DNA of 9,899 bases, taken from an uncultured Clostridium sp. GTDB taxonomy: Bacteria > Bacillota_A > Clostridia > TANB77 > CAG-508. The DNA is taken from positions 1 to 9,899 of the forward strand of contig CAJKKA010000057.1 of assembly GCA_905200315.1 (NCBI GenBank), given 5' to 3'. Shown piece by piece: positions 2,680-8,683 of this stretch (positions are counted from its first letter, which is position 1; each line of letters starts with the position of its first letter). The translations under genes and the position numbers were made by a program. Below the pieces are notes generated by a model. It was given only the letters and a program-made list of their open reading frames with translations, ran no database searches and had not been told where the DNA came from.

Positions 2680-2810
2680 AAAATAATAATTAAGATTAAA
2701 TTTCGCGAAGCAAGTGGGGACCTTTCCGCCATTCTTCAAAATTCTTTGAATTTTGTTAGAATGGCGTGAATGGGGAGCTTCGATGAAATTTTAGATTAAT
2801 TAATTATTTT
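2680..2810 (+). ncRNA. Structured 5' leader RNA of unknown class (or palindromic element)
   Basis: This 131-nt stretch folds into one rod: 2680-2693 with 2796-2810 (14 bp, one bulged A); an internal loop in which G2694-A2695 faces G2794-A2795; 2698-2704 with 2785-2791 (7 bp); a small loop; GAAGC 2707-2711 with GCTTC 2777-2781; a large asymmetric loop (2712-2726 and 2767-2776) holding GGGGA on both sides; CGCCATTCT 2727-2735 with 2758-2766; and an apical 8-bp helix 2737-2744/2748-2755 closed by TTT. The inner part is much richer in G+C than its surroundings. It lies wholly inside the leader predicted from the promoter at 2629-2657 and ends about 20 nt before the RBS (AAGGAG, 2829-2834). I do not recognise it as a known riboswitch. 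No intrinsic terminator precedes the gene, so any control would be at translation or processing. A MITE-like insertion is the alternative. Confidence 0.5.
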
Positions 2811-4364: not shown

Positions 4365-4394
4365 ATTATATGTAATATTACAAAAATTTATCAA
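4365..4394 (-). promoter_or_regulatory. Sigma-A promoter candidate downstream of rpsR
   Basis: TTGATA (4394-4389) and a perfect TATAAT (4370-4365) on the minus strand, spaced by 18 nt. The region is almost pure A/T, so a chance match is possible. The expected start is near 4358. Confidence 0.4.
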
Positions 4395-7407: not shown

Positions 7408-8079
7408 ATGAACGATTTTAATTTTCAAAAAGAAAATGCTATTATACATAAAAATAATTCTTTAGAAAGACTTAACCTTTCATTTCTCAAACATATAAAT
7501 TCAATGGAATTTAAAAAAAGTCATTTATTAGCTTATTGGATCAATGACTTTTCCAATTATCATGATGAAGAAAAAGTTTTTGATACAACTAAATTAATTA
7601 CTTTTAAACGTGGAAGTATTATAAAAGTAAATCTTGGATTCAATATTGGTAATGAGTTAGGAGGACTTCATTATTGTATTGTTTTAAATAAATTTGATAA
7701 TCCTAAAAATGGAACTTTAAACATTATTCCTTTAACTTCCAAAAAAAATAAAAAATATCCTAAAACTTCTATTGATTTAGGAAACGAAATATACAATGCA
7801 TTAAACAACTTATATTCTAAACAATTTGAAAATTTTTCATTCGATATAAAAAACAATTTAAATCCATCAGAAAAAAATTTATATTCTATTTTTGAATATT
7901 CCCAAAAAATAAAAAATGAAATTTCTAAAATGAAGAAGGGTAGTATTGCACTCATCAATCAAATAACCACTATTAGTAAGCAAAGAATTTATGATGATGA
8001 CATTTTAAAACATATTCGTTTATCAGAAAAAAGTCTAAATTTAATAGATGAAAATATTATTAAATTTTTCACAAAATAA
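7408..8079 (+). CDS. MazF/PemK-family toxin-like protein with long N-terminal extension
   Basis: 223 residues, about twice the size of MazF. The SH3-like core begins near residue 67: KRGSIIKVNLG, then GNELGGLHYCIVL, NIIPLTSKK and, after an insertion of about 60 residues (120-175), KKGSIALINQITTISKQRI. These match Bacillus MazF (KRGDVYFADL, GSEQGGVRPVLVI, AAITAQ, DSVILLEQIRTIDKQRL) strand by strand. The MazF catalytic Thr corresponds to T110; the catalytic Arg position is H88. MazF proteins are mRNA interferases; with the Arg lost, activity is uncertain. Residues 1-65 are an unrecognised helical extension. GGAGG lies seven bases before the ATG, 13 nt after the exporter gene, so they are likely co-transcribed. 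No MazE-like antitoxin gene is adjacent on either side. Confidence 0.75.
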   Translation: MNDFNFQKENAIIHKNNSLERLNLSFLKHINSMEFKKSHLLAYWINDFSNYHDEEKVFDTTKLITFKRGSIIKVNLGFNIGNELGGLHYCIVLNKFDNPKNGTLNIIPLTSKKNKKYPKTSIDLGNEIYNALNNLYSKQFENFSFDIKNNLNPSEKNLYSIFEYSQKIKNEISKMKKGSIALINQITTISKQRIYDDDILKHIRLSEKSLNLIDENIIKFFTK

Positions 8080-8105
8080 AAAAGGAGAGATGCTGTGAAC
8101 TCTCC
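8078..8105 (-). terminator. Intrinsic terminator, minus strand
   Basis: GGAGAG (8105-8100) and CTCTCC (8089-8084) pair around a 10-nt loop on the minus strand and run directly into TTTTTT (8083-8078). On the plus strand it is followed by A residues, so it works only for minus transcripts. It touches the stop codon of the MazF-like gene (8077-8079). It can end both the small RNA and read-through from the pfl operon. Confidence 0.7.
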
Positions 8106-8147
8106 AAAATATTCTGACGACCGACTACTTTTAGTAGTGGTAAAGTT
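8078..8147 (-). ncRNA. Candidate small RNA (about 70 nt) convergent with the MazF-like gene
   Basis: A near-consensus promoter (8182-8154) and an intrinsic terminator (8105-8078) bracket about 70 nt with no ORF. The RNA would contain a first hairpin, ACC-ACTAC-TAAAA-GTAGT-C-GGT (8141-8120, 8 bp with one bulge), a single-stranded AT-rich stretch and the terminator hairpin. It is antisense to any transcript of the MazF-like gene that reads past its stop. It matches no RNA family I know. The alternative is that these are 3'-UTR structures of the operon at 8210-9899. Confidence 0.5.
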
Positions 8148-8153
8148 AAATAT

Positions 8154-8182
8154 AGTATAACAACTATTATAAAACATGTCAA
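8154..8182 (-). promoter_or_regulatory. Near-consensus sigma-A promoter for the small RNA
   Basis: On the minus strand a perfect TTGACA (8182-8177) is followed after exactly 17 nt by TATACT (8159-8154), 11 of 12 bases of consensus. It is the strongest promoter in the window. The expected start is near 8147. No coding sequence follows before the terminator. Confidence 0.65.
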
Positions 8183-8209: not shown

Positions 8210-8683
8210 TTATTCATACATTTCTTTTTTTCTTGAAAATAATCTTCTTATTTTATTAAAAATTTTCTGTACAAAATTTTCTTCTTTATATACAATCATT
8301 GATAAAAATTCTTTTCCAATTTCTATTTCATTATTATCATCTTGTATCTCTTCATCTTCTTGCTCTACTTCCTGCTCTTCTTGTTGTTTTAACTCTTCTT
8401 GATATTTATCTTCATTTTCATCAAATAATTCTCTTAATTTTATTTTTTCTTCTTCATCACACCAATAATTTAAATGTAAGAATGCTATTATACTAATTGA
8501 TTCTTTCTTAACAACTTGTCTATCTAATGCAACTGTTGTAGCATATACTGGATTATATTCCGAAGATTTTTCTTCTTTTATTATATTATAAATATCTTTT
8601 GGTAGTTTATCTATGTATTCTTTTCCTAGCATATTTAATATTGCATATACTTCTGAATATATGTCTTTAACTGTGTTTTCCAT
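8210..8683 (-). CDS. Acidic protein of unknown function (157 residues), last gene of the pfl operon
   Basis: I do not recognise a family. Residues 1-80 look globular and helical (MENTVKDIYSEVYAILNML, then VYATTVALDRQVVKK and IIAFLHLNYWCDEEEK). Residues about 80-122 are a highly charged, Glu/Gln-rich low-complexity coil. The end (FLSMIVYKEENFVQKIF, NKIRRLFSRKK) is basic and amphipathic, possibly membrane- or RNA-binding. No signal peptide. Its start overlaps the end of the preceding gene by 17 bases and its RBS (AGAGG) is 12 bases upstream, so translation is probably coupled. Both small genes follow pflA closely. No terminator follows until 8105-8078. Confidence 0.7.
   Translation of the reverse strand: MENTVKDIYSEVYAILNMLGKEYIDKLPKDIYNIIKEEKSSEYNPVYATTVALDRQVVKKESISIIAFLHLNYWCDEEEKIKLRELFDENEDKYQEELKQQEEQEVEQEDEEIQDDNNEIEIGKEFLSMIVYKEENFVQKIFNKIRRLFSRKKEMYE

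Follow-up and report, generated by a model that had tools for sequence, protein, structure and literature searches.

MazF toxins are textbook partners of protein antitoxins. In the stretch of DNA analysed here, hereafter the window (9,899 nucleotides from an uncultured Clostridium sp., contig CAJKKA010000057.1), a MazF-like gene ends where a putative small RNA gene on the opposite strand ends. The locus therefore raises the question of whether this RNA has a gene of its own and, if so, what it does for the protein at its side. As set out below, an RNA of this kind recurs beside MazF-like genes in phages, plasmids and gut bacteria, which suggests that a toxin system with an RNA antidote has been overlooked.

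The window locus

The MazF/PemK-fold gene (7408..8079, plus strand) codes for the proposed toxin, a protein of 223 aa with an N-terminal helical hairpin followed by a MazF domain into which a second helical hairpin is inserted. The MazF/Kid-like beta-core fold is present and the protein matches PF02452 (PemK/MazF) with an E-value of 2e-12. The adjoining upstream gene, which ends 14 nt before the ORF, codes for an ArsP-like permease of 281 aa; no protein antitoxin gene adjoins the MazF-like gene, in agreement with the first-pass annotation of this DNA. Beyond the RNA lie a pflA-type gene and two genes without a Pfam family over the cut-off, and the minus-strand genes as far as pflA end at 8210, directly upstream of the RNA.

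By its sequence, the minus strand from 8182 to 8078 is a free-standing small RNA gene with a strong promoter, a bulged hairpin, an A-rich linker and a terminator. The promoter (8154..8182; score 11/12) consists of TTGACA at 8182-8177, a 17-nt spacer and TATACT at 8159-8154, and the RNA of ~70 nt (8078..8147) has a predicted start at ~8147 that is placed from the -10 box. Hairpin 1 (8120..8141), as read from the fold and from relatives, has an outer stem ACC/GGT, a bulged C at 8123 and an inner stem ACTAC/GTAGT. A purine-rich single-stranded linker (8106..8119), the sequence of which is partly conserved in the alignments, connects it to the terminator stem-loop GGAGAG/CTCTCC (8084..8105), for which sequence, fold and a covarying stem in relatives all speak. 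The T-run after the terminator stem (8083-8078) overlaps the MazF-like stop codon (8077-8079). Promoter, hairpins, T-run and the meeting of the RNA's 3' end with the stop codon all lie exactly where the first-pass annotation had read them.

The stretch 8147-8073 folds at -17.7 kcal/mol vs -8.63 +/- 2.04 kcal/mol in shuffled sequence (z -4.45), and 0/200 shuffles are as low. Promoter-like sites across this AT-rich window occur at chance level (70 vs 71.0 in shuffles), and one second site, at 4394, also scores 11. Given that the total is at chance, the window promoter alone proves nothing and the case rests on the relatives; it is conservation and covariation there that lift the RNA above chance. 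The window terminator is missing from the list of our terminator scan because its loop of 10 exceeds the limit of 8 that the tool sets on loops. Searches with Rfam gave no match to the small RNA in the window and nothing on the RNAs of nine related loci, and blastn of the window RNA against phages and plasmids gave short AT-rich matches only. The sole Rfam match in the window is a weak, chance-level snoRNA at 2680 (E 0.62), which overlaps an intergenic inverted repeat, long but imperfect (2700-2790, plus strand).

An RNA family beside the MazF-like gene

A search with the window protein gave 1471 relatives, and scanning genome contigs with alignment A1 yielded 80 loci, mainly from Clostridia MAGs, with proteins 48 to 71% identical to the window protein. 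Seven of these loci are ended by the contig end; among the 73 evaluable ones, 72 have a homologous RNA directly after the MazF-fold stop codon, and in the remaining one (L070) the protein is present and no RNA is visible in the remaining 1348 bases. Counting the window with these 72 loci, 73 sequences bear the RNA, and in all of them it is downstream of or convergent with the gene: it is convergent in 56 and codirectional in 17. A quick protein tree (70 rows) places the switch between the two arrangements at a single change, on a branch with a support of only 55. The promoter scores 12/12 in all 17 codirectional RNAs and 11 or 12 in 53 of the 55 convergent ones. As a control, 348 other ORFs of at least 200 aa in the same loci were searched within 110 nt downstream; 26 have a site of at least 11 and four have a site of 12.

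The first-pass annotation had proposed a covariance search for the RNA next to homologues of the MazF-like gene. Such a search, with a model (R1) trained on 12 codirectional RNAs only, found the RNA in 73 of 81 sources; the 74th match is an additional copy, in tandem, in L062 (E 0.0054). The convergent RNAs of 55 loci, which lie outside the training set, were matched with E-values from 1.3e-9 to 3.9e-4 and the window was matched at 8151-8079 (44.1 bits, E 3.3e-6). The tandem copy (L062:6952-7035, plus strand) is a divergent RNA with its own promoter behind the first one and resembles the RNA of a divergent paralogue in L122.

The stems of this RNA are kept by compensating changes. In the 12-row RNA alignment (A4), 97.7% of the cells are paired vs 79.9 in shuffles, 12 of the 18 pairs have changed on both sides (8.7 in shuffles; 1/500 as high) and 50 cells carry both-side changes (17.1 in shuffles; 0/500 as high); the count of further pair types did not beat the shuffles (25 vs 23.9; 189/500). 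Structures slid along the same alignment pair in 37 to 56%. RNAalifold recovers both hairpins unaided from the 12 codirectional rows alone; on the full MAFFT alignment (A2) it returns the terminator only, and hairpin 1 is missed because it is shifted by one column between the groups. In the model-fitted alignment A5 (74 rows) 18/18 pairs covary, a count that leans to the model since the alignment was fitted to it. In the consensus, a short outer stem is followed by a bulged C and an inner stem that varies in length; then come an A/G-rich linker and a terminator, in the stem of which the sequence varies and the pairing is kept. No pseudoknot is evident by eye, and the consensus fold is itself blind to pseudoknots. 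Two further elements, a helix pairing the 5' leader with the linker and a pseudoknot, were judged by eye and dropped as inconsistent. In total, the relatives, in which the -35 and -10 boxes and the hairpins are conserved, support the earlier suggestion of a dedicated small RNA, equipped with a promoter and terminator of its own and tied to the MazF-like gene.

The protein family

PF02452 matches 16/16 members of A1, and PF13958, the ToxN family, is absent among the 21 families listed for these members. The 50 matches listed for VIA-align 2 are MazF/Kid-type chains with no ToxN-type chain among them, an absence that carries no weight in such a listing. Arg is the catalytic residue of MazF; at its position in the alignment to EndoA the window protein family has a His, which is invariant in 54 rows of alignment A6, and among 16 diverse rows Arg is kept in only two (L159 and L162). 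With this replacement, RNase activity is not assured. In PHROGs the window protein falls into phrog_1412 (E 8.2e-45), the label of which, 'antitoxin mazE-like', is probably wrong, as its members carry the MazF-type domain. There is no NCBIfam family for the window protein, and PADLOC had no fitting model, giving four weak families in one of 16 members each and two weak ones among seven proteins.

Intact proteins come with the RNA and the RNA outlives the protein

Forty genomes were reached from 41 of the 80 loci; the protein is present in all 40 and the RNA, by a model designated R2, in 39. Across 287 genomes of one order, 56 have both, 11 the RNA only, 13 the protein only and 207 neither (Fisher p 1e-35, kinship ignored). 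All intact full-length proteins in these genomes have an RNA downstream (52/52), in 41 cases by model R2 within 400 nt and in 11 by eye. The latter are divergent proteins, downstream of which a promoter of the type TTGAC(A/T/G)-N17/18-TA(T/A)AAT, hairpins and a terminator can be read; in eight of these 11 the promoter reaches a score of 11 or 12. The reading frames for the L121 and L123 proteins are open.

The association is asymmetric. Among the 80 RNAs found in the 287 genomes, an intact protein gene is the neighbour of 41 and a broken or partial one of 17; the other 22 have none beside them, and some of these are located at contig ends. In L114, a gene fragment is followed by a transposase-like ORF and then by an intact RNA; in nine orphan-RNA stretches that were opened, protein remnants are clear in one (L181) and the others have none below E 0.1. 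Intact proteins that always come with the RNA and an RNA that outlives the protein form the pattern that a toxin and its antidote would show. Two orphan stretches have features of their own: in L174 (G308:C51) two RNA copies lie ~1 kb apart (contig positions 11812 and 12938), with no MazF-like gene in the stretch examined and the contig ending just after the second copy, and in L116 a gene for a ToxN-type protein (L116:6779-7276, minus strand; PF13958, E 3.4e-41) lies 1.4 kb from the RNA.

The distances of protein and RNA also correlate over 70 loci, with an r of 0.942 (0/2000 permutations). Where a genome carries two copies, as with L046/L063, L052/L074 and, from a third pair, L071, RNA and protein have their nearest relatives in a common group; L008 is an exception, with an RNA nearest to a different group. 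The flanking genes mostly differ, the largest neighbour cluster comprising nine sequences, and no conserved neighbour gene that would be a candidate protein antitoxin was found across the loci.

Phages, plasmids and lone RNA copies

Several loci adjoin integrase, repressor-like or recombinase genes, as judged by reading, and tRNA or tmRNA genes occur in a number of the 49 loci scanned. By tblastn, the protein is present in 102 phage records (60 of Staphylococcus and 42 of Streptococcus) and 16 plasmids, and one member (L154) lies on the B. subtilis plasmid pSX01705-2; among eight loci on viral contigs that have the protein, the RNA was seen in five. In the phage records that were opened the gene sits before the integrase gene, with homologues between repressor and integrase, and the stretch of Javan387 that was seen contains no integrase. 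In each of 13 phage and plasmid loci that were read, hairpins and a terminator follow the promoter by eye. The promoter scores 10 to 12 in five of these loci and 7 to 9 in eight, which makes it weaker evidence in phages and plasmids. In three loci the sRNA Spy779816 (RF02589, S. pyogenes) lies convergent to the module RNA, with the latter on one side and the integrase gene on the other (L149:2301-2387, L150:2302-2388 and L152:2368-2457, all minus strand), the match in L152 being below the cut-off, and a traJ-II RNA over the cut-off (L159:1668-1769, minus strand) lies near the MazF-like gene of an Acinetobacter lwoffii plasmid.

In some of these mobile relatives the RNA hairpins are repeated. 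When repeats of 20 nt at offsets of 18-47 were scored against 300 shuffles in seven phage and plasmid loci, they were clear in L153, L155 and L151 (0/300 as high), marginal in L149 (9) and L160 (7), and not found in L159 (39/300) and L162 (281/300). A comparison of SA13 (S. aureus) with BM31 (S. arlettae), two phages with proteins 57% identical, shows that changes on both sides have preserved the two repeat stems.

The Rfam family sau-63 (RF02394) matches, over the whole model, the RNA that follows the MazF-like gene in phages R1988 and SapYZUs7 (51.7 bits, below the gathering cut-off of 100; E 7.7e-7) and the complete record of R1988 has no other match with an E-value of 10 or less; sau-63 matched two of the 15 phage and plasmid loci scanned and, unlike in these phages, nothing in the window. 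The record of phage 315.1 names a protein of SaPIn2, which we take to be vSa-alpha, as the best hit of its MazF-like gene. PT1028 ORF005, also MazF-like, is a full-length member of phrog_1412 (E 4e-67) that is 37% identical to the window protein over 149 residues. A promoter-like TTGACT-N17-TATATT overlaps its stop codon, followed by two hairpins and a terminator; Rfam gave nothing convincing on this RNA stretch. We infer that PT1028 corresponds to SaPIpT1028 and its ORF005 to Sma, an antiphage defence that the accessible excerpts on it describe as a single protein, without an RNA. Sau-63 is presented, in the accessible part of its report, as an RNA of ~100 nt that was detected by Northern blot and lies between hypothetical proteins in SaPIn2 of S. 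aureus N315 (PMC3053349). Presumably, Sau-63 and Sma are partners.

The repeated RNA also occurs on its own. The repeat part from phage 69 is matched by 73 phage records, 70 of them, from staphylococcal phages, at >=90% (GenBank and RefSeq twins are both counted), and the other three are the protein-linked records of R1988 and SapYZUs7; a protein of the R1988 type at an identity of at least 90% is found in only four phage records. Some carriers of a lone RNA, such as phages 92 and 85, have a protein of the SA13 type elsewhere. Five lone copies were opened: each comes after an endolysin gene, the stretch seen has no MazF-like gene, and one of their two hairpins differs from that of R1988 by a compensating pair. 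Our guess is that these lone repeat RNAs may be antidote mimics. In addition, Javan637, 642 and 648 carry nearly the same RNA (96.8%) as Javan166. Of these three, the Streptococcus phage Javan637 was opened, and there the gene that precedes the RNA is of the DUF1828/DUF1829 type (L165:121-897, plus strand) and not MazF-like.

Proposed mechanism and alternatives

Combining the locus, conservation and association data, we suggest that the window contains a two-gene module in which a MazF-fold protein with extra helical parts is coupled to a short structured RNA, and we consider it fairly probable that this is a type III-like toxin-antitoxin or phage-defence module with the RNA restraining a MazF-fold RNase. 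In this model, (i) the protein, presumably an RNase, would be toxic and arrest growth, (ii) the RNA would be made in excess from its own strong promoter and most likely binds the protein directly and neutralises it by holding it inactive, and (iii) the protein would be released once the RNA is lost, for example after shut-off of host transcription by a phage. The module would serve in phage defence or in the maintenance of the element that carries it. Several observations count against this reading, i.e. the RNA-less locus L070, the RNA beside another gene in Javan637, the His in place of Arg, the 22 of 80 RNAs without a MazF-like gene, the weak promoters in phages and plasmids and the absence of a type III layout.

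Alternatively, the RNA could be a cofactor or guide that activates the RNase or targets it, rather than an antidote. The obligate pairing of intact proteins with the RNA fits this alternative too, and the His in place of the catalytic Arg suggests an altered enzyme. However, a cofactor without its enzyme should decay; given that RNAs with intact promoters persist beside broken or missing proteins and that phages carry lone repeats in many records, we regard a cofactor as unlikely.

The RNA could also act by base pairing with the toxin mRNA in a type I-like manner or, in the convergent clade, through overlap of the 3' ends. The first-pass annotation had likewise offered antisense control of the toxin-like mRNA, and the T-run that overlaps the stop codon in the window as well as the convergent arrangement in 56 of the 73 RNA-bearing sequences agree with it. 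Nevertheless, the other 17 RNAs are codirectional (with the reservation that the flip is a single change on the tree, at a branch support of only 55), pairing of the RNA with the 5' region of the gene is at chance, beating shuffled sequence in only 38 of 70 cases, and the stems covary, which points to the RNA's own structure. The codirectional RNAs and the chance-level pairing also set the module apart from type I systems. We therefore consider base pairing improbable: of the overall reading of the first-pass annotation, the dedicated toxin-linked RNA is supported and antisense control as a general mechanism is not.

It is more doubtful still that the RNA has an unrelated job, such as control of the integrase or free regulation, and rides along by linkage. 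In the phage loci that were opened the RNA does directly precede the integrase gene, there are orphan copies and the RNA of Javan637 lies beside another gene. Against this, the MAG loci have neighbours that mostly vary from locus to locus and in many cases are no integrases; each of the 52 intact proteins has the RNA, and the distances of protein and RNA correlate. Finally, that we are looking at a shared 3' UTR or terminator of the pfl-side genes with no separate RNA, the simpler explanation named in the first-pass annotation, is hardly credible: the minus-strand genes up to pflA do end just upstream, at 8210, but promoter, hairpins and terminator are kept where the pfl-side genes are absent, and the flanks mostly differ while promoter, RNA and MazF-like gene stay together.

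Returning to the reading that we favor, an RNA that restrains a MazF-fold RNase, we tentatively extend it beyond the window, as a possibility in which we place limited confidence: the MazF-fold proteins of phrog_1412 and their bacterial kin may constitute an overlooked RNA-neutralised MazF branch in mobile elements of Bacillota, with Sma and Sau-63 as the two halves of one module and the lone endolysin-side repeat RNA of many S. aureus phages as a phage antidote mimic. A phage RNA mimic of the antidote that disarms the toxin has reportedly been found for ToxIN. If this extension is true, a MazF family with a steady RNA partner would link type II and type III systems, the S. aureus sRNA Sau-63, to date without a function, would gain a job, a 'single-protein' phage defence would become a two-part one, and phage-borne RNA decoys would be indicated.

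Comparison with known systems

A literature search with most subscription papers outside its reach found no paper that pairs this MazF-like family with an RNA. The type II systems MazEF and PemIK share with the module the MazF fold and PF02452; in contrast to them, the module is without an adjoining MazE-like gene, and its protein has extra N-terminal helices, an inserted helical hairpin and a His in place of the catalytic Arg. The Rfam pemK RNA (RF02913) is likewise a structured RNA named after MazF-family genes, but it is another RNA (AUAAUGAUACUU...) that lies elsewhere in the same genomes, and it gave no covariance match on the window or on nine loci. Matches to RF02913 over the cut-off were found in two of the 11 genomes searched (L135:1501-1618, minus strand, and L136:1501-1576, plus strand), the one in L135 beside a canonical MazF-like ORF.

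In Clostridioides difficile, according to the accessible part of the report on AbiF/RCd22, a separate ncRNA binds a phage-borne toxic protein directly and thereby neutralises it, both in cis and in trans (PMC12373285). That system differs from the module in that its protein is of the Abi_2 family and does not have the MazF fold, in that the RNA precedes abiF and in its RNA motif.

The type III systems (ToxIN, CptIN, TenpIN and AbiQ) resemble the module in the MazF/Kid-like fold of the toxin, in a small structured RNA and in their presence on mobile elements, as far as the accessible sections of PMC5086642 describe them, and the repeated RNA hairpins in phage relatives of the module add to this likeness. 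The differences lie in the protein, which belongs to PF02452 and not to PF13958, in the RNA of the window, which has one hairpin unit and no tandem repeats, and in the layout, in which the module RNA is downstream or convergent with its own promoter whereas type III systems have upstream repeats and one promoter. Since the type III definition printed in those sections requires repeats upstream of a ToxN homologue (PMC5086642), we do not file the module as type III, although it may work like a type III system.
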